Of a stretch of 20,548 nt of DNA, positions 256 to 20,487 are shown in pieces (position 1 is the first letter of the stretch; every line of letters begins with the position of its first letter). Where the stretch lies: positions 1-20,548 of the IMG/VR virus record IMGVR_UViG_3300021964_000711, one strand, 5' to 3'. The position numbers and the translations under genes are program-made. Source of the stretch: a virus. The notes beneath the pieces are model-generated. The model saw nothing but the letters and a program-made list of their open reading frames with translations. It was not told the DNA's origin and ran no database searches.

Positions 256-1653
256 TTAAACTGTTGGAGTTTCTATCGCTGTTTGAGGGAACTCTCCAAG
301 TCTAGTTGTTGATTGATCTATTTCTTCATCAATTTGTGAAAGAACATCATCATCTTCAATAACTGTTCTAGCTATTTGTTTGTCTAGTTCTTTTACAAAA
401 GTATCAGATTTAATATTAGATGCTTTCGCTTGTTGTAATACTTCTAAGTCAGTTGCCCAATCTCTAAGATCAAAAGATTCAGGATACATAATTTTGCCAT
501 CAAATACTTTGTCTTGCCACAATGCGTATAATCTCCAAATCTGTTCTTCTGCTAATTGCATTAAGTTAGCTTTCTCAGCTAGTCTTGCATTAAGTAATTG
601 AAACTCAGTTCGTAAAGCTACACCTGATACTACTCTCTCACTTGTACTTCTAACTGCACCTACATGAGATAGTCTATTGATAGCATCAACTTTCATAGAA
701 ATAGTTTTTAATACTGAATCTAAGTTCTGTCCGCTAGGTTGTAAGATGTAAGGTTTTAATGACGGATCAATTCCATCAGGCATTTCTATAATCGCACCAG
801 CACCAGCAGAAGCATCAACATCTCTAGTTTTAACTAAGCTAGGGTGATTAGATAATCTAATTAATTGTTCAATCTCAGATAGTTCATTGTAGATTGCTCT
901 TTGTAAGTCAGCAATATCCGTTAAATCAGATATACCGATTGCTCTCATTGGACTTCTTTGATTATATAAAATAACTGCTGGAATTTGACCGATAGCATTA
1001 GGTTGTGAATCAATTAACTTAGGTTCACTTGTGCTAATCTTAGATAATTCAACAGTATCAATTCTGTCTAAATACCAAATACGATATGTTTCTTTTTTAG
1101 AGTCAGAGTGTTCTCTAACTTTTAAATAATCTAAATAGTATTTACCTGATGATGCTCTTGAGTAATTCCAATCAATAACATTCTCAGGTGTATAAACATT
1201 GATGTAAGGTCTAATTTCTTGTTGTAATTCTTCTGCTCTAGTTCTTGCATTAGAATTAGGCTTGTCCATGATTAACCAACAATGTCCGTAGATAGATGCG
1301 TAAGTTTGTAGTTCTCTCAATAATGCTTCATATGCTCTACCCTCTAAATCTGCATCATCTAAGAACATAGGAATAGTTTGATCTTGTTCTAAGCTACCTA
1401 GTTCTCTTACTGGTTTAACTCTAAATAAAAATGATGAATAGATGTGTACGACATTTCTACAATGGTTATCCAAAGGAGTGAATTGTAATCTCTTATAAAG
1501 TTCTGATTCTAGTTCAAGGTTATATTCTTGTAAGTATCGTCCTTGCTTGTATTCTTCTCCACCCAAGAATGATCTGATAAAATATTGCCATCTTTCTGAA
1601 AATGCTGAGTAATGTTCGTGTTGGTTTAAAACTTCTTGTCTTGAATATGCCAT
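256..1653 (-). CDS. Phage portal protein
   Basis: This 465-aa protein has the length and layout of tailed-phage portal proteins. These form the dodecameric ring at one capsid vertex through which the terminase pumps DNA and to which the tail attaches. The N-terminal half is mixed alpha/beta (for example YINVYTPENVIDW at about 150-162, and IPAVILYN). It is followed by a long helical region (about 240-300 and 340-390, LLNARLAEKANLMQLAEEQ) that would correspond to the stem and tunnel helices, and an acidic C-terminal tail. The start codon overlaps the terminase stop as TAATG, implying translational coupling. The neighbouring terminase and head gene give the usual terminase-portal-head order. Assignment rests on overall architecture and position; I did not see a single diagnostic motif. 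Confidence 0.85.
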   Translation of the reverse strand: MAYSRQEVLNQHEHYSAFSERWQYFIRSFLGGEEYKQGRYLQEYNLELESELYKRLQFTPLDNHCRNVVHIYSSFLFRVKPVRELGSLEQDQTIPMFLDDADLEGRAYEALLRELQTYASIYGHCWLIMDKPNSNARTRAEELQQEIRPYINVYTPENVIDWNYSRASSGKYYLDYLKVREHSDSKKETYRIWYLDRIDTVELSKISTSEPKLIDSQPNAIGQIPAVILYNQRSPMRAIGISDLTDIADLQRAIYNELSEIEQLIRLSNHPSLVKTRDVDASAGAGAIIEMPDGIDPSLKPYILQPSGQNLDSVLKTISMKVDAINRLSHVGAVRSTSERVVSGVALRTEFQLLNARLAEKANLMQLAEEQIWRLYALWQDKVFDGKIMYPESFDLRDWATDLEVLQQAKASNIKSDTFVKELDKQIARTVIEDDDVLSQIDEEIDQSTTRLGEFPQTAIETPTV

Positions 1654-2903
1654 TAGCTAAATCTCTTAGGTTGTGAAGGTGGTAAATTACTTGAGATAGG
1701 GAAGATATATTCTATTGCGTATCCTAGTGCATCAGTCATATGATCGTAACCACTTTTCTCAGGTTGATTTGTACCTTCTTTATACATTTGTTTCGTTAAA
1801 CTATTAATAAGGTTTTTGCAAGAAGGATCAATTAATATATTTCTTTTGCCATCAAAATTCTTCAATCTTGAATTAACACTATTGATCCGATCTCTAACTA
1901 GAGCATGAGTATTTTTACATTTAACATTAACTCCAGCATTTTGCAAGATAGTTAAATCAGTTCTTCCACCAGCACTAGTTTTACGTTGCCTACAAGCTGG
2001 ATCAGGATAAACGATAATATTATTCTTGGGGTATCTGCTTAATAATTCGTCAATAAACTCATCTGTATTACTAGAATAAATAACTATCTCATCAAAGAAC
2101 TCAGCAACATTATTCTTTAAATGAAATAAACAACCTGACATAGGGTCAATGTTAAAGTCTAAACCTACATGAATAACTGCTTGTGGATCGTACTTGCATG
2201 GCTTAACATTTTCTTCTCTGTTAAAGTTATAATAAACAACACCAGCATAGGTTTCAAAACTAGCTAAGTATTCTTGCTTAAACGATCTTTCGTCTAAATC
2301 TTTTTTTGCTTGTTCAATCTCATGTGCTTCTACTTGCCCACCTTCTACTGTTGTATATTTCCAAGACTCCCACTCAGGATCATCTGACTTTCCTTTTTGA
2401 AACATATCATAAGACCAATTACCTACACCTTTTGGAGTACCAACAAATAATACTGAACCTTGTACGTGCTTATCTGAAATAGTAGGACGTAATACTTCGT
2501 TCCAAGCTTCCTCAGGTATATCTGCAAATTCATCTAAGACTAAGAAGTTAAGACCTACACCTCGTAAATTATCAGGAGATTTATCTGCACCTTTTAAACT
2601 AATCTGACAGTTGTTTCTTAGTACAATCGTTAGTTCTGTTTCGTTAATGTATTTATCCCAACGTAAAAACTTAACTATTTTCTTGAGATTCTTCCACATA
2701 ATCTCTTTAGACATTCTATAAGTAGGACTTACATAAAAGATTTTACCATTAGGATTATCTCTACCTTTTCGTAATAACTCCATCATGCAAAGATGTGTTT
2801 TACCAAATCTACGTCCTGTGATTAGGACTCTAAATCTTTTGTTGCTAGATATAACTTGTTTTTGTGGTTCAGATAAAGGCACTTTCAATCCTATTCTTTG
2901 CAA
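1653..2903 (-). CDS. terL: Terminase large subunit (ATPase/nuclease)
   Basis: This is the packaging motor: an ATPase that translocates DNA into the prohead and a nuclease that cuts the concatemer. The 416-aa protein shows a Walker A-like loop GRRFGKT (about 30-36), a Walker B LVLDE (121-125) with the catalytic Glu, and a coupling motif with GTP at 155-157. The C-terminal RNase H-like nuclease shows GLDFNIDP (about 247-254), YPDPA (299-303) and DHMTDALGYAIEY near the end, supplying the usual Asp residues. The length is typical of the family. The start at 2903 lies inside the end of the DNA methyltransferase gene (35-nt overlap). The stop is coupled to the portal start. The small subunit is not adjacent but about 2.6 kb upstream at 5472-5843. 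Confidence 0.95.
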   Translation of the reverse strand: MQRIGLKVPLSEPQKQVISSNKRFRVLITGRRFGKTHLCMMELLRKGRDNPNGKIFYVSPTYRMSKEIMWKNLKKIVKFLRWDKYINETELTIVLRNNCQISLKGADKSPDNLRGVGLNFLVLDEFADIPEEAWNEVLRPTISDKHVQGSVLFVGTPKGVGNWSYDMFQKGKSDDPEWESWKYTTVEGGQVEAHEIEQAKKDLDERSFKQEYLASFETYAGVVYYNFNREENVKPCKYDPQAVIHVGLDFNIDPMSGCLFHLKNNVAEFFDEIVIYSSNTDEFIDELLSRYPKNNIIVYPDPACRQRKTSAGGRTDLTILQNAGVNVKCKNTHALVRDRINSVNSRLKNFDGKRNILIDPSCKNLINSLTKQMYKEGTNQPEKSGYDHMTDALGYAIEYIFPISSNLPPSQPKRFS

Positions 2904-3582
2904 TATTAAAATAATTTTTATCCAATTCTATACCAATAAAATCTCTATTAGTATTCTTACAAGCTACCCCTGTTGAACCTGAACCCATTGTAAAATCTAA
3001 TACAATATCATTTTCGTTAGTATAAGTTTTGATTAAGTATTCTAATAAAGCTACTGGCTTTTGTGTTGGATGAACACTACCATTTCTTATTTTATCAAAT
3101 GTAATAAGATTTATTGGATTTTTATATTTATATTCTTTTTTAAATCCTATCGGTAAATTGTGTGGTGCTGTTTCACTTCTTTTTATTCCACCAGATTTTA
3201 TTGGTTTATCTCTTAAAATTTTTTGTGGATAATAGTGAGTTTTGTTTTTACTAAATATAGATATTAATTCTAATTGTCGCATTGGTTGATATTTAGCAAA
3301 AGCCATACCACTTGGAATTTTTTTATTCCAATACCAATCATATTTAAACCATTTAATATTTGACATTCTAAGATTACTGCTAAATGGCTCACTACCAAAC
3401 AAAGCTATACAACCATTATCTTTAATAACTCTTTTTAACTCTTTCCACATTGGCTCAAATGGAATTATGCTATCCCATTTACATTGTGTCGTTCCATAAG
3501 GTGGGTCAGTAAGGACTAGATCAATACTGTTATCAGGTATCGTTGGTAATACCTTTAAGCAATCGTCATTAAATAATTGCAT
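2869..3582 (-). CDS. DNA methyltransferase, N6-adenine/N4-cytosine type (beta class)
   Basis: This 237-aa protein carries the catalytic motif TDPPYG (25-30, with DPPY at 26-29) before HPTQKP (171-176) and the SAM-binding DFTMGSGSTG (196-205). Catalytic motif first and SAM motif near the C-terminus is the beta-class order of the N6_N4_Mtase family. It would methylate an exocyclic amine in DNA, with adenine N6 most likely from DPPY. No restriction endonuclease accompanies it, so it is an orphan enzyme. Known roles of such phage enzymes are evasion of host restriction or marking DNA around packaging. The ATG at 3582 overlaps the preceding gene by 14 nt and has a good Shine-Dalgarno (AAGGAAAG). 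The target sequence cannot be read from the protein. Confidence 0.93.
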   Translation of the reverse strand: MQLFNDDCLKVLPTIPDNSIDLVLTDPPYGTTQCKWDSIIPFEPMWKELKRVIKDNGCIALFGSEPFSSNLRMSNIKWFKYDWYWNKKIPSGMAFAKYQPMRQLELISIFSKNKTHYYPQKILRDKPIKSGGIKRSETAPHNLPIGFKKEYKYKNPINLITFDKIRNGSVHPTQKPVALLEYLIKTYTNENDIVLDFTMGSGSTGVACKNTNRDFIGIELDKNYFNIAKNRIESAFI

Positions 3583-4117
3583 ACTTTCCTTGTTCTGCCC
3601 ATTTCATAATCCAATACTCATCTTTTCTAATCTCATGTGATGGGTACACATAAGTGTTAGATGTTGGGTGAACTTCCATTGTATATCTATTGGGTGTCTT
3701 GAAGAAATCATAACCAGTTACAGTCATAGATTTAAACTTAATATTATTGATAATCCAATAGATACTTACTAACCCTGTTGTAGGTCTATAATAACCTAAC
3801 TCTCTGCACATAAAATTATATTCGTTTGAGTTCCATAGCCAAGCATGAGGTTTAAGTTCTTTAGGTAATCGTTCCATTCTTTTGCCGTCTTTTTCTGCAT
3901 TGAGTCTAATAATGTTTTTAAACTCAGGTACATCTCCTAGAAAATCATGTGCTTTATTAACTAAGTTGTCTATCCATACATCTATTGGTTTTGTCTTAAT
4001 TCCAAGATTCATTCTTACAATGCAATTATATTTAGAGTAATCAGGTTCTTGATCAACGACTGCGTTTCCTATGACAAGCAAGTCCTTGTCCTTCATGTAA
4101 CTAAATGGATCAAACAT
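3569..4117 (-). CDS. GT29 (sialyltransferase)-like glycosyltransferase candidate
   Basis: The 182-aa protein has features of the GT29 sialyltransferase fold. Near the N-terminus VIGNA (15-19) is followed by YNCIVRMN (30-37), matching the general shape of sialylmotif L. RPTTGLVSIYWI (111-122) followed by TVTGYDFF (132-139) resembles sialylmotif S. A histidine in HEIRKDE (161-167) sits where the small VS motif falls. GT29 enzymes transfer CMP-activated sugars in eukaryotes; bacterial and phage relatives are little characterised, so donor and acceptor are unknown. It is shorter than classical members and lacks a membrane anchor. It is coupled by TAATG to the methyltransferase before it and overlaps the DNA methyltransferase after it. 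I infer a role in modifying a glycan on the virion or host surface. The assignment is by motif shape and should be tested by profile search. Confidence 0.65.
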   Translation of the reverse strand: MFDPFSYMKDKDLLVIGNAVVDQEPDYSKYNCIVRMNLGIKTKPIDVWIDNLVNKAHDFLGDVPEFKNIIRLNAEKDGKRMERLPKELKPHAWLWNSNEYNFMCRELGYYRPTTGLVSIYWIINNIKFKSMTVTGYDFFKTPNRYTMEVHPTSNTYVYPSHEIRKDEYWIMKWAEQGKYAII

Positions 4118-4584
4118 TAACCAGTAAATACTAATTTATAATTTTTATATTTGTTAAATTTATCTCTCCACCAATCTTCAGGTTTAACTGTTGCATGTGC
4201 GTTCATACCATTAGGCAATACTTCTCTAGCTTCTCTACAACATACAGAAACAAATACCCATCTATCTGAGTAATTAAATATATCTGCAATTATGTCGTCA
4301 ATGTGTTCTTCAGGAATATGCTCTAATACATCTGTGCTTATGACTAAATCAAATCGGCCTGTAGGCCTTGTACTAAACTCAGGAATAGCTGGATCATACT
4401 TAACTGCGTTCCAACTAGGATCATGGTACTGTGCTTTACCGCAACCATAATCTAACATAGTTTCTAAGTTATATTCTTTACGCAGTTTATTAATCTCAGG
4501 GATATATTGTCTTACTGTTGTACCTCTCCATTTCTTTTCATTTTGATGAAGTAATTTGGCTTGTTCTAAATATATATCGTACAT
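4117..4584 (-). CDS. Class I SAM-dependent methyltransferase
   Basis: The 155-aa protein has the class I methyltransferase core. Motif I is DYGCGK (45-50), which binds the SAM methionine part. A KYDPAIPEF strand follows with an acidic residue for the ribose (about 62-70). FDLVISTDVLEHIPEE (78-93) is the motif IV/V region typical of Methyltransf_11/23-type enzymes. It ends shortly after the beta-sheet core, so it lacks a large substrate-specificity domain. The substrate is unknown. Enzymes of this type next to glycosyltransferases often methylate sugars or small molecules, and that is my inference here. It lies between a degenerate paralog and the GT29-like gene, joined to both by TAATG junctions. 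Confidence 0.88.
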   Translation of the reverse strand: MYDIYLEQAKLLHQNEKKWRGTTVRQYIPEINKLRKEYNLETMLDYGCGKAQYHDPSWNAVKYDPAIPEFSTRPTGRFDLVISTDVLEHIPEEHIDDIIADIFNYSDRWVFVSVCCREAREVLPNGMNAHATVKPEDWWRDKFNKYKNYKLVFTG

Positions 4585-4961
4585 TAGGAATTAAAATAAA
4601 AGCTATGTCTAGGGTATTTGCTTAGTTGTTTAATGATTGGTTTAAACAAATCAGATTTAAAATTTAATATAATCATTACGTGCTTACTTGAATAACTAAA
4701 TATATCTTTAATTGCTATACTTAAATATTCTATCGGTAAATACTCCAACAAATTATTAACAACAACCAAATCATAATGATAATTGCTGTTACTCGTGAAG
4801 ACTTGTTTTTGTATATCTTCTTCGCTTTGTTTGAAAGTGTGTCCATAAAGCAAGATAGTTTTAGCTTCATAGAAGATAGCTTTGTTAGATATTTCTTGTC
4901 TAGCATCAAAGTCATAATTCCTTATGTCCTCTAGGTTTATAATTAAATGATGTTTTTTCAC
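4584..4961 (-). CDS. Degenerate methyltransferase-like protein, paralog of the next gene
   Basis: This 125-aa protein aligns by eye with the downstream methyltransferase. YDLVVVNNLLEYLP (63-76) followed by IAIKDIFSYSSKHVMIIL corresponds to FDLVISTDVLEHIP followed by DIIADIFNYSDRWVFVSV. LLYGHTFKQ (37-45) corresponds to LDYGCGKAQ. The glycine-rich SAM loop GCGK has become GHTF, the acidic ribose-binding strand is not recognisable and the C-terminus is shorter. I infer a duplicate that lost catalysis and may be a regulatory partner or a decaying copy. It opens with GTG at 4961, with AGGAG nine bases upstream, inside the 3' end of the preceding gene (50-nt overlap). It remains an intact frame coupled to the functional copy by TAATG. 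Confidence 0.7.
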   Translation of the reverse strand: MKKHHLIINLEDIRNYDFDARQEISNKAIFYEAKTILLYGHTFKQSEEDIQKQVFTSNSNYHYDLVVVNNLLEYLPIEYLSIAIKDIFSYSSKHVMIILNFKSDLFKPIIKQLSKYPRHSFYFNS

Positions 4962-5187
4962 CTTTAGTTACTCCTATACACTCAAACCAAGTGTCTAATA
5001 CTGTTAAATTTTTATCTTCCATAGATTGCCTAGCCCATTTCATTATTTCATTACCTTTATTTTTACAATCTTTTTCTGTCGCAAAATATCTTAGTTCATG
5101 CTCTTCAAACCAAAAGTCATAGACCTTAGGAATATTTGCAGTTGGATCAGCTACCATTATGTGCATGAATAAAAAAAACTTGATCAT
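4912..5187 (-). CDS. Small exported-looking protein, function unknown
   Basis: I place the start at ATG 5187, which overlaps the previous stop as ATGA, rather than at the TTG at 5208. This gives 91 aa. The N-terminus MIKFFLFMHIMVADPT is a lysine followed by a short hydrophobic run and looks like a short signal peptide or membrane anchor. The mature part has two cysteines (EKDCKNKG and WFECIGV) that could form a disulfide in the periplasm, and two tryptophans. The spacing of aromatic and Cys residues resembles small phage proteins of unknown function. Its 3' end overlaps the next gene by 50 nt in another frame. No function can be assigned. Confidence 0.6.
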   Translation of the reverse strand: MIKFFLFMHIMVADPTANIPKVYDFWFEEHELRYFATEKDCKNKGNEIMKWARQSMEDKNLTVLDTWFECIGVTKGEKTSFNYKPRGHKEL

Positions 5188-5462
5188 GCTTTGAAACCTT
5201 TTCGCCAAGATTTAACTGCCCAATAAGCTGGTGATAAACTTTTCTGTCCTTTTACCTTCGCTAGTATAGGTCTAAATCTTGCCATAAATGATTTCTGTCT
5301 TGCTGGAATATTCTTCTTGATACTCATGCCTTTAGCACCAAATCTTACTACCTTAACTTTACCTGATCTATTATCTTTAACATAGACTCCAAACTTTTTA
5401 GATGCACTTGGAGTTCTAAAGGGTTTGTTTAATGATACTGTTCTACCTTTATATTTTGCCAT
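5184..5462 (-). CDS. Small basic protein, probable virion or DNA-associated
   Basis: The 92-aa protein is strongly basic, with many Lys/Arg and almost no acidic residues. It has the run KKFGVYVKDNRSGKVKVVRFGAKG (about 22-45), SIKKNIPARQKSF and a C-terminal AYWAVKSWRKGFKA. From memory, many marine and cyanophage genomes encode a related small protein with the core KFxVYVKxxxGKVxxVxFG followed by a Cys-containing stretch ending in YWxCKxW. Here the cysteine positions of that stretch appear replaced (AYWAVKSW), which would abolish metal binding if the family uses it. It sits directly downstream of the small terminase with a 9-nt gap. The biochemical function is unknown; a structural or nucleic-acid-binding role is inferred from charge and position. 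Confidence 0.65.
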   Translation of the reverse strand: MAKYKGRTVSLNKPFRTPSASKKFGVYVKDNRSGKVKVVRFGAKGMSIKKNIPARQKSFMARFRPILAKVKGQKSLSPAYWAVKSWRKGFKA

Positions 5463-5471
5463 AGATTCTAT

Positions 5472-5843
5472 TTACACAATATCTGTTAAGGGTAAAGGGT
5501 TATTGCTTTCGTCTTCTTCATCATCTCTATCTTGTTTTAAATAAACTTTACCCAACCACATGGCTACTTGTCCTGAATTTAATTGAGTTGCTAATTTGAA
5601 TTGTGTTCTTCTGATACTAGCTTTTGCGTGAGCCACCCCCATTTTATAGTTTTTCATAGCCATTTCATTTCTTTCAATAGTGTCATGGGAACAACCAATT
5701 ATTGTACCTATTTCTTGCTTAGTACACATAATAGAAGCTAAATCGTATATTTGTTTTAATACTTTATCATTAAACTCAAATTTAGGTCTTCCTATTTTGC
5801 TAGGTTGTATGATCTCTATGTCTTTGCTGTCTATCTTATCCAT
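5472..5843 (-). CDS. terS: Terminase small subunit-like protein
   Basis: This 123-aa protein probably recognises the packaging site and loads the large terminase. The N-terminal third contains GRPKFEFND followed by a helix-turn-helix-like region (about 28-58, LASIMCTKQEIGTIIGCSHDTIERN). The central helices carry the pattern VAHAKASIRRTQFKLATQLNSG, then VAMWLGKVYLKQ (93-104). Paired Ala/Arg-rich helices ending in a WLGK-YLxQ motif are typical of many phage small terminases. The tail is acidic (DRDDEEDE). It is not next to the large terminase: about 2.6 kb of small and modification genes lies between them. The family call is by recognition, and a general HTH DNA-binding protein is the alternative. 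Confidence 0.75.
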   Translation of the reverse strand: MDKIDSKDIEIIQPSKIGRPKFEFNDKVLKQIYDLASIMCTKQEIGTIIGCSHDTIERNEMAMKNYKMGVAHAKASIRRTQFKLATQLNSGQVAMWLGKVYLKQDRDDEEDESNNPLPLTDIV

Positions 5844-6202: not shown

Positions 6203-6321
6203 TTTTTCTTTTTACGTTTAGTGTAACTCTTGCCTTTGCCTGATTTTATTTTGTATCGTCCTTTGCCAAATCTTTTAACGATCAATTCAGATAATGTTGA
6301 TGAAGTAGTTAATCCAGCCAT
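6199..6321 (-). CDS. 40-aa basic mini-protein
   Basis: A 40-codon frame, starting MAGLTTSSTLSELIVKRFGK and ending YTKRKKKK, runs from ATG 6321 to TGA 6199. It is coupled at both ends: the ATG overlaps the stop of the virion-protein gene (TAATG) and its stop overlaps the metallopeptidase start (ATGA). Such perfect junctions argue that it is translated. The N-terminal half could form one short amphipathic helix and the C-terminal half is Lys/Arg-rich, suggesting binding to nucleic acid. It belongs with the other tiny Lys-rich proteins just upstream in the same operon. Function unknown. Confidence 0.7.
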   Translation of the reverse strand: MAGLTTSSTLSELIVKRFGKGRYKIKSGKGKSYTKRKKKK

Positions 6322-7046
6322 TAATGATAATCTTCTAAATATAAACTAAATGAAGCTGATACTGCACAAGTAGCATCTGCCTTTGCCCTAACTTCTATGT
6401 CAGTTTTTTGATCTATAAGAATAGGTATCTCAAACTTTCTAAATACTGGTGTACTAAAAGATGATTGATAACCTACTGTGTTCCATACGTTACCATTGTT
6501 AATTCCTTTGACTAATATTTTAGATTCTAATTCTTTTTGCTTACTCATTCCTACTGATGCTGAAACAATCCATGCTCTTTTGTTAGCTGGTACTGTGTAA
6601 ATTGCCGATAAATTACTACCATAACCTACAGGAATACTAGCAACTGTTTTTGAATCTACTGTTGTTGTAATTGTACCTGCGTTAGCATCTCCAGTTGTTG
6701 CTGTAAGCATACGAGTGCTGAATACACGAATAAATGTTGTTGTAGAAGCTGATCCACCGATTGTTAATGTTTCACTAGCTGGATTAAAGTTTTGATCTAA
6801 ACCTGTTACTAAAACAGTTCCACCATCATCTGATGCTGTATTTGAACTTGTTACAACTGCTGTAGTAGCTGTAGTAGGATAAACATAGATTCCTGTTCCA
6901 CTCCAAATTGTTGCAAATGCAGTTGATACACTTGGGTTATATCCGTATTGACCGATAGCAGAAAAGTCTTCTACCAATCCTTTTTGGACATTAATTCCAA
7001 AGTCAAATTCTATAAAAGGTCTTGAGTTTTGTATGTTAAATGCCAT
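6321..7046 (-). CDS. Virion structural protein (beta-rich), role unassigned
   Basis: The 241-aa protein is rich in Thr, Ser, Ala, Val and Gly with little charge, as expected for a beta-sheet virion protein. The N-terminal part contains PSVSTAFATIWSGTGIYVYPT (about 39-59), then VVTSSNTASDDGGTVLVTGLDQ and a Thr/Ser/Ala-rich stretch to about 130. The C-terminal half has IYTVPANKRAWIVSASVG and ends SFSLYLEDYH. The pattern (start near a tryptophan, SSNTASDD, then VPANKRAW) resembles structural proteins I recall from marine podo- and siphophages. There is no signal peptide and it is not the major capsid protein as far as I can judge. Possible roles are head decoration, neck or spike protein. It is coupled at both ends to tiny basic genes. 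Confidence 0.65.
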   Translation of the reverse strand: MAFNIQNSRPFIEFDFGINVQKGLVEDFSAIGQYGYNPSVSTAFATIWSGTGIYVYPTTATTAVVTSSNTASDDGGTVLVTGLDQNFNPASETLTIGGSASTTTFIRVFSTRMLTATTGDANAGTITTTVDSKTVASIPVGYGSNLSAIYTVPANKRAWIVSASVGMSKQKELESKILVKGINNGNVWNTVGYQSSFSTPVFRKFEIPILIDQKTDIEVRAKADATCAVSASFSLYLEDYH

Positions 7047-18588: not shown

Positions 18589-19179
18589 TTAGTTAATTCC
18601 AAACATCAATATCTTACCAGCATCTATATTTCCGCTAGACATTTGGAATTTTATATTTGTCAGTGCTGATGTTGTATTGGCATATCCAGCAGAACGATCA
18701 TTTCTTGTAAAATCACTAGCATCATATGCTTGTAAATCAGAAACCCAATGTTTTACAAATGTAGTAGAACTTGGATTAAAAAGGTGCATACTACCACTTG
18801 CACTTTCATCACTACCATTACCTACTGCCAAACATAATCTTTGAAAAGATGTGCTTTGTGCTAAATCTGATGGTGTGTGATATTCCAAAGTAGTAGAAGT
18901 GTCAGATTCATCATGGTATGTCATAAAAAAAGTAGATGTTTTAGTTACGTTATAATTAGAACCACTATCTGTGCTAAAATTAAAAGTTAAATTGGTATTG
19001 TCAGTAGCTGGGTGAATATTAACAAAGAAAAACTTATACTCTTTATAACTCCCCAATGAAAATTCTATACTAGCAGAAGATGAAGCAGTAGCACTAGATA
19101 CGAATACCATTGATCCACCAAAACCTGATGCCATCGCACCATTATCAAAGACTGTAGTTCCGTTAGATATTAATCCCAT
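18589..19179 (-). CDS. Appendage protein, tandem copy 3
   Basis: The 196-aa protein is the last of three tandem paralogs. Shared motifs are an N-terminal ISNGTTVFDNGAM, SSSASIEF, NIHPATD, SNYNVTKT, DLAQST, LFNPSSTTFVKH, AGYANTTSA and FQMSSGNIDAG. Rich in Ser, Thr, Asn and Gly with few charges, it should be a beta-structured virion protein. Families with this layout in marine phages are usually annotated near tail fibres, and I infer an adhesin or fibre tip, probably trimeric. Sequence between conserved blocks differs strongly between copies, as expected for receptor-contact loops. The ATG follows AAAGG. It directly precedes the fibre chaperone-like gene. Confidence 0.8.
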   Translation of the reverse strand: MGLISNGTTVFDNGAMASGFGGSMVFVSSATASSSASIEFSLGSYKEYKFFFVNIHPATDNTNLTFNFSTDSGSNYNVTKTSTFFMTYHDESDTSTTLEYHTPSDLAQSTSFQRLCLAVGNGSDESASGSMHLFNPSSTTFVKHWVSDLQAYDASDFTRNDRSAGYANTTSALTNIKFQMSSGNIDAGKILMFGIN

Positions 19180-19181
19180 AA

Positions 19182-19232
19182 TTAAATCCTTTTAATTATT
19201 TCTTTGTTGAAGTGCAACGAAAACAAAGCCAT
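19182..19232 (-). CDS. 16-aa micro-ORF between appendage copies 2 and 3
   Basis: ATG 19232 to TAA 19184-19182 encodes MALFSLHFNKEIIKRI. It starts one base after the stop of copy 2 and ends two bases before the ATG of copy 3, and it contains the Shine-Dalgarno (AAAAGG) of copy 3. The peptide matches the micro-ORF at 19827-19883 (MALxSLHxxKEI). Codon differences in the shared residues are third-position synonymous changes, which suggests selection on the peptide. Confidence 0.45.
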   Translation of the reverse strand: MALFSLHFNKEIIKRI

Positions 19233-19233
19233 G

Positions 19234-19836
19234 TTATTTCACTCCATACATTTTGATAATGCCATCATCAATGTTTCCTGATGACATTTGGAAACGAACA
19301 GCATTAATTGCTGATATGGTATTGGCATACCCAGCAAGATAATCATCTTCAGCATAATCACTAGATTGTGCTGTAGAACTTCTTCCTATAAAATGTTTTA
19401 CATAAGTTGTGCTAGAAGGATTAAACAAATGTAAAATTCCAACCCCAGCTTGATCATTATCACTTCCTATTCCTCTAATAAATTCTTGGTCTGCTGTACT
19501 TTGTGCTAAATCTGCACCAGTTAAATAACCTAATAATGTAAAACCGCTAGTTTCACCATTATAAGCATAAAATCTAGTTGTAGTTTTAGTTACATTATAG
19601 TTTGAACCACCATCTGTAGAAAAATTAATCATTAAATTTGCACCATCAGCACTTGGGTGAATATCTATAAACTTAAACACATAGGAATCATAGGTACTAT
19701 CTATTCCTGATGTAAAACTTAATGAAGCTGAACTACTTGCAGTTTGGGTAGATAATAAAATAAGTGATCCTGTTGGTACTCCAGCGTCTAAAGCACCATT
19801 ATCTATTAAAGTTGTTCCGCCTGATACTACTGCCAT
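19234..19836 (-). CDS. Appendage protein, tandem copy 2
   Basis: The 200-aa middle paralog has SGGTTLIDNGALDAG near the start, LLSTQTASSSASLSFTSGID, YVFKFIDIHPSAD, SNYNVTKTTTRF, LAQSTADQEF, LFNPSSTTYVKHFIG and AGYANTISAINAVRFQMSSGNIDDG. It is closest to copy 1 (both have GxLxLLSTQTAS and SIDSTYDSYxFKF). Beta-rich virion adhesin candidate as for copy 3. Differences are concentrated in the regions about 90-125 and 145-165. It begins with ATG 19836 behind AAAGG; the upstream micro-ORF overlaps its first ten bases in another frame. Confidence 0.8.
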   Translation of the reverse strand: MAVVSGGTTLIDNGALDAGVPTGSLILLSTQTASSSASLSFTSGIDSTYDSYVFKFIDIHPSADGANLMINFSTDGGSNYNVTKTTTRFYAYNGETSGFTLLGYLTGADLAQSTADQEFIRGIGSDNDQAGVGILHLFNPSSTTYVKHFIGRSSTAQSSDYAEDDYLAGYANTISAINAVRFQMSSGNIDDGIIKMYGVK

Positions 19837-19883
19837 AAGATACCTTTTATTTCTTTATACGAATGTAATGAGTGTAAAGCCAT
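19827..19883 (-). CDS. 18-aa micro-ORF between appendage copies 1 and 2
   Basis: ATG 19883 to TAG 19829-19827 encodes MALHSLHSYKEIKGILWQ. It starts one base after the stop of copy 1 and runs ten bases into copy 2 in a different frame. Residues M-A-L-x-S-L-H-x-x-K-E-I equal those of the micro-ORF at 19182-19232, with Leu, Ser and His codons changed synonymously. It contains the Shine-Dalgarno (AAAGG) of copy 2. Confidence 0.45.
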   Translation of the reverse strand: MALHSLHSYKEIKGILWQ

Positions 19884-19884
19884 A

Positions 19885-20487
19885 TTATGATCCTTTTATC
19901 CCATACATTTTAATTGTACCAGCGTCTATGTTGCCTGAACTCATTTTAAACTGAATTGCATTTACAGCAGAAGTTGTGTTTGCGTAACCTGCTGAAAAAT
20001 AATTAAAAGTATAATTAGAAGAATGATACCCATTAAGATTAGCAATAAAATGTTTCACAAAGACAGTTGATGAAGGATTGAATAATGTTAATGAACCAGA
20101 AACAGATTGGTCAGCATCATTACCAATAAATCCCATTATAGTTTGAAACGCAGTTGATTGAGCTAAATCTTCTGTTGTTCTGTATGAAAGTTCTGTTTCT
20201 GTATCTGCTTCATTATGAATTGTTCTAAACACAGTTGTAGTTTTTGTTACATTGTAATTTGAACCTGCATCAGTTGATAAATTAAATTGAAACGCTATAT
20301 CATCAGTAGCTGGGTGTATATTAATAAACTTAAACATATAGCTATCATAGGTACTATCAATACTGCTTGTGAAACTAATAGAAGCTGAAGCAGAAGCTGT
20401 TTGAGTAGATAATAAAACCAATCCACCTAATCCAACACTAAATGCACCATTGTCTAAGATGGTTGTTCCACTAGAGATAAAAGCCAT
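19885..20487 (-). CDS. Appendage protein, tandem copy 1
   Basis: The 200-aa first paralog shows ISSGTTILDNGAF, GLVLLSTQTASASASISF, YMFKFINIHPATD, SNYNVTKTTTVF, DLAQSTAFQTI, SLTLFNPSSTVFVKHFIA, AGYANTTSAVNAIQFKMSSGNIDAG and ends IKGS. As for the other copies the composition is beta-rich and neutral. Start ATG 20487 follows GGAG. The preceding truncated gene (20490-20548) ends two bases before this start region, and its C-terminal motif looks like a fibre protein end, so the copies may be adhesive tips or accessory fibres attached to it. Confidence 0.8.
   Translation of the reverse strand: MAFISSGTTILDNGAFSVGLGGLVLLSTQTASASASISFTSSIDSTYDSYMFKFINIHPATDDIAFQFNLSTDAGSNYNVTKTTTVFRTIHNEADTETELSYRTTEDLAQSTAFQTIMGFIGNDADQSVSGSLTLFNPSSTVFVKHFIANLNGYHSSNYTFNYFSAGYANTTSAVNAIQFKMSSGNIDAGTIKMYGIKGS

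Follow-up and report, generated by a model that had tools for sequence, protein, structure and literature searches.

A small phage gene cluster in the window analysed here (the whole 20,548-base virus record, to which all gene coordinates refer unless another locus is named) encodes a 182-aa protein, GT, that by its structure model has the fold of GT29 sialyltransferases together with most of the sialylmotif residues. Judging by gene content across related genomes, this protein and a class I methyltransferase, MT155, are found as a pair and constitute the mobile unit of the cluster. We give about an even chance to the reading that GT and MT155 form a two-gene glycan-modifying unit, composed of a CMP-sugar transferase and a sugar methylase, that acts on a glycan of the virion or host surface.

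The genes lie on the minus strand in the order p98, mt125, MT155, GT, DNA methyltransferase, TerL, and portal (Table 1). As the original prediction had proposed, the four ORFs from p98 to GT are chained by overlapping ends, which we confirmed from their coordinates and from independent contigs that repeat the same gene order and junctions. Specifically, p98 and mt125 overlap by 50 nt, and the mt125/MT155 and MT155/GT junctions each share one base (TAATG). The prediction had omitted the PF01555 DNA methyltransferase, a member of the same chain that (at 3582-2869) overlaps GT by 14 nt and also overlaps TerL (2903-1653). The ratio dN/dS relative to the window is 0.06-0.11 for GT and 0.05-0.10 for MT155, and 0.10-0.30 across mt125 pairs, all of which are simple NG86 estimates with some pairs near saturation. 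Purifying selection on the genes, together with a gene order and junctions that are repeated across independent contigs, shows that the chain is not a product of chance. Its predicted placement between small and large terminase holds for TerL, while the small subunit is only putative and had no match in a Pfam search. The ATG at 5187 previously taken as the start of p98 lies within an ORF that extends to a TTG start at 5208. The closest isolate by TerL is Pelagibacter phage HTVC026P (54%; nearest isolates overall, 53-54%), from which we guess at a SAR11-type host.

Table 1. Features of the packaging region in the window.
Feature	Position	Strand	Start codon and basis of assignment
Portal protein	256..1653	-	PF05133 6.2e-9
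TerL, terminase large subunit	1653..2903	-	PF03237 2.2e-12
N6/N4 DNA methyltransferase	2869..3582	-	PF01555 3.8e-38
GT, 182-aa GT29-fold putative CMP-sugar glycosyltransferase	3569..4117	-	ATG start; model, fold matches, motifs
MT155, predicted class I SAM-dependent methyltransferase, GT partner	4117..4584	-	ATG start; PF13489, PHROG 24759
mt125, methyltransferase-like protein without SAM loop	4584..4961	-	GTG start; profile match to MT155 family
p98, 98-aa small protein	4912..5208	-	TTG start; 29/64 intervals
p92, small basic protein, flank of variable interval	5184..5462	-	PHROG 7595 2.5e-20
Putative small terminase subunit (TerS)	5472..5843	-	Position and HTH-like sequence

The AF2 model of GT (pLDDT 72.5, pTM 0.74) has weak stretches at residues 52-61 and 142-148. 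When it was compared to the PDB with Foldseek, ranks 1-10 were all GT29 enzymes, namely animal sialyltransferases (ST6GALNAC2 at 2.8e-4, prob 1.00), and CstII of family GT42 came next. VIA likewise returned porcine ST3Gal1 (Z 10.8, rmsd 2.8 over 156 residues), ST6GalNAc2 (Z 10.3), ST8SiaIII (Z 9.7), and CstII (Z 8.1), so that both searches place GT in the GT29 fold (GT-A variant 2). At the sequence level, PF00777 (Glyco_transf_29) was matched by 26 of 38 aligned GT relatives, with a best value of 5.3e-7 and some of them above the cut-off; the GT of relative L077, about 50-51% identical to that of the window, scores 26.7 bits against a gathering score of 23. The window's own GT found no match in searches of PF00777 or of PDB sequences, a PDB profile search gave chance-level matches only, and searches of isolated phages with GT had no match. 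Genome-contig scans with peptide patterns, which are of limited sensitivity, turned up no bacterial relative, and one candidate from a motif scan (L030) was a chance match. Relatives that have a GT directly upstream of TerL, or upstream of a DNA methyltransferase, came from a TerL scan.

Sialylmotifs L, S, and VS (H-x4-E) have been described for this family (PMC8433944), and we looked for them in 74 distinct GT sequences. All 74 share G17, N18, R35, N37, P112-T113-T114-G115, and H161, which gives an invariant motif L (GN...RxN) and motif S (P-[ST]-[ST]-G) as well as a motif VS with invariant histidine and either E (48 sequences) or D (26, including the window) at position 166. Motif III, (H/y)-Y-x-(D/E), is only partly kept as [YW]145-T-x-E148 with the motif His not conserved, and this region is poorly modelled because it falls into one of the two weak stretches. 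In one locus, L007, codon 45 of GT (1859-2404) is an in-frame TGA, which is either real or a sequencing error. Fold match, Pfam matches of relatives, and motifs together uphold the original assignment of the 182-aa protein to GT29. However, VIA also returned an archaeal HPPK from Methanocaldococcus with Z 8.8, whose fold is common to MptE-type diphosphokinases, and the fold alone therefore does not fix the activity of GT. GT might thus be a nucleotide-binding relative of shared fold, for example an MptE-type diphosphokinase, instead of a glycosyltransferase, and the missing Pfam match of the window's own protein would fit such an enzyme. We regard this as very unlikely given that GT29 entries top both fold searches, that PTTG and H-x4-[DE] are conserved, that relatives exceed the Glyco_transf_29 cut-off, and that GT8-like genes accompany GT in some phages (see below).

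MT155 belongs by its sequence to the class I SAM-dependent methyltransferases, as indicated by motif I (D-x-G-C-G, within an invariant LDYGCGKA) and by family profiles: it matches PHROG 24759 (methyltransferase) at 4.4e-25 and PF13489 at 5.5e-6, 0.3 bits below a cut-off that its relatives exceed. A more specific assignment as pseudaminic-acid methylase TIGR03587 (best 5.7e-5, with 10 of 20 members matching) was dropped because the scores are far under the 112-bit cut-off and other methylases match more MT155 members. The neighbouring mt125 matches the MT155 family by profile (prob 97, E 7e-11) and has LLYGH where MT155 has DYGCGKA, so that the Gly-rich SAM loop is absent; its structure model was too weak to judge the fold, and the fold search was uninformative. 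The original description of mt125 as a degenerate twin is thus right about the lost loop but not about degeneracy, since its dN/dS values are those of a maintained gene, which is conserved independently of GT. For p98, a KD19 maximum of 1.20 and the lack of any strong hydrophobic segment speak against the exported-looking protein that had been proposed.

Which of these genes belong together was assessed by their co-occurrence between the terminase genes. Of 88 tabulated loci, we used the 64 that have TerL and a complete interval (anchored by TerS, p92, or DUF6321). GT is present in 32 of these and MT155 in 21, never without GT, while 11 intervals have GT without MT155 (Fisher p 6e-9 for the association, with around 3 independent contrasts on the TerL tree). 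In contrast, 13 of the 18 intervals with mt125 lack GT, and p98, present in 29 intervals with a single change along the TerL tree, is clade background that follows the phage clade. In L008, which lacks MT155, mt125 joins GT directly at a single TAATG junction where relatives have two, and mt125 is also the gene preceding GT in L124. Between GT and TerL, L003 and L008 have a DNA methyltransferase that is 33-34% identical to the window's, and other relatives have none. Such a gene occurs in 7/64 intervals overall and in 6/32 of those with GT (p 0.1), as would be expected of an exchangeable slot outside the MT155-GT pair. Additional genes are carried by L077-type phages, which we call freshwater phages as our reading of the group and not as a sample label. 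These phages encode two GT8-like proteins (PF01501), of which one passes the cut-off and the other narrowly misses it. They also encode a protein of 302-325 aa (ParBMT) that has a weak ParB-like stretch and, by visual reading, a methyltransferase-like motif. All three were found only with GT (GT8a and ParBMT in 20/64 intervals each, 0 without GT).

A scan with the GT alignment further revealed around 20 other phages in which the MT155-GT pair is located in the tail-fibre/lysis module instead, for example in the order C1q tail fibre, XkdW, M15 peptidase, MT155-GT, p241, and metallophosphatase in L134. MT155 adjoins GT at this second location wherever the upstream gene is covered, and neither mt125 nor p98 was recognised beside the pair in a neighbour tally that includes "other" and "end" classes, not all of them identified. 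TerL is encoded elsewhere in three of these contigs (G013, G014, and G015) and is 54-55% identical to that of the window. The GT of the window is 65-66% identical to those of L134 and L138 but only 51% identical to those of L077 and L053, even though the latter two phages have TerL proteins 78-81% identical to the window's. This closer kinship of GT to phages with distant TerL argues for exchange between phages. The predicted cassette therefore does recur in other phages as a glycosyltransferase-methyltransferase pair, with MT155 and GT linked, and not as the proposed four-gene system, since mt125 and p98 are kept independently of GT and are both missing from what was recognised at the second location.

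Some further observations concern these tail regions. The window itself encodes p241 (6321-7046), a Ser/Thr-rich protein (23%) with a relative directly following GT in L134 and L138, and p241 is a possible candidate acceptor for the GT-added sugar. Three tandem, mutually similar proteins of around 200 aa at 18589-20487 are tail-fibre-like by position and resemble ORFs upstream of MT155-GT in L137. Genes similar to HlyC-family acyltransferases (PF02794) lie among tail-region ORFs by position in the relatives L110 (5903-6331, E 4e-18) and L118 (16217-16654, E 5e-19).

If the pair modifies glycans, GT would be a soluble enzyme (no transmembrane segment was found) that, with His161 as base, passes a sugar to an acceptor from a CMP-activated donor. 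The donor sugar would be of nonulosonic acid or Kdo type and supplied by the host, and MT155 would then methylate the sugar added by GT. It counts against this reading that no sialic acid or CMP-sugar gene was recognised among the 25 of 32 Pfam families listed for a 32.6-kb relative. Judging by gene location alone, the most likely target is the virion, where the pair, expressed with the packaging or tail-fibre/lysis genes, would decorate a protein of the particle surface, for example a tail fibre; in freshwater phages, the GT8-like enzymes would lengthen the glycan beneath this cap. Our second choice is a glycan of the host surface. In this case, the same chemistry would alter LPS or another glycan of the host envelope and thereby block superinfection or keep progeny from adsorbing to debris. 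GT8 enzymes typically act in LPS core synthesis, and the two GT8-like genes accompanying GT in freshwater phages would fit this idea; yet no flippase or membrane protein was recognised in the cassette and the pair adjoins tail-fibre and packaging genes, so that we see an envelope target as a possibility on the unlikely side. PADLOC profiles of anti-phage defence had no match among six proteins.

The nearby terminase, as well as the DNA methyltransferases in the neighbouring slot of the window and some relatives, could also suggest that the pair modifies phage DNA by base glycosylation and methylation. This is less likely because no family for DNA-base hypermodification is among the same 25 of 32 listed Pfam families and the pair is also found away from packaging genes; the DNA methyltransferase moreover comes and goes independently, and we consider DNA as the target to be highly improbable. 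The glycan reading can be taken further, and rather doubtfully so, to the proposal that SAR11-type phages carry a transferable GT29-methyltransferase unit with which they attach a methylated sugar of nonulosonic type to their own virions, a viral counterpart to the sialylation seen in animals, and that alleles of this unit pass from phage to phage.

Compared to the animal GT29 sialyltransferases ST3Gal1, ST6GalNAc2, and ST8SiaIII, GT is alike in fold over nearly its whole length and in most of the residues that make up motifs L, S, and VS, but it has only 182 aa, no transmembrane anchor, no conserved His in motif III, and around 10-13% identity in structural alignment. The statement that GT29 enzymes are known mainly from eukaryotes needs qualification, given that 23 bacterial GT29 sequences have been analysed (PMC5811610). 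Like GT, these lack the eukaryotic transmembrane domain and have sialylmotifs, a likeness by description and not residue by residue, whereas GT is found in phages and paired with a small methyltransferase. CstI and CstII of GT42 have a related fold, and CstII ranked below GT29. Phage DSL-LC06, among the nearest isolates by TerL, has a protein annotated as alpha-2,3/8-sialyltransferase upstream of its packaging genes (L106, 926-1483), which had no Pfam match and was not recovered with the GT profile. Mycobacteriophages Che8 and Rita, as cited in PMC11256854, have glycans on capsid proteins and encode glycosyltransferases; their hosts differ, and the likeness to MT155-GT lies in encoded glycosyltransferases and not in a compared gene family. 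Variable metaviromic islands of marine phages include TerS and TerL genes (PMC3909814), though unlike for the window's interval the text of that study does not mention glycosyl- or methyltransferases.

Phage glycosyltransferases and bacterial GT29 are already known, and what appears to be new is a recurring, moving GT29-methyltransferase pair in small aquatic phages; we found no report of a phage GT29 or of such a pair in the open-access literature subset. If active, the pair would offer a minimal soluble GT29 for study and would reveal how small phages that infect abundant aquatic bacteria diversify the chemistry of their surface. It may also help to account for the presence of terminase genes in variable islands.
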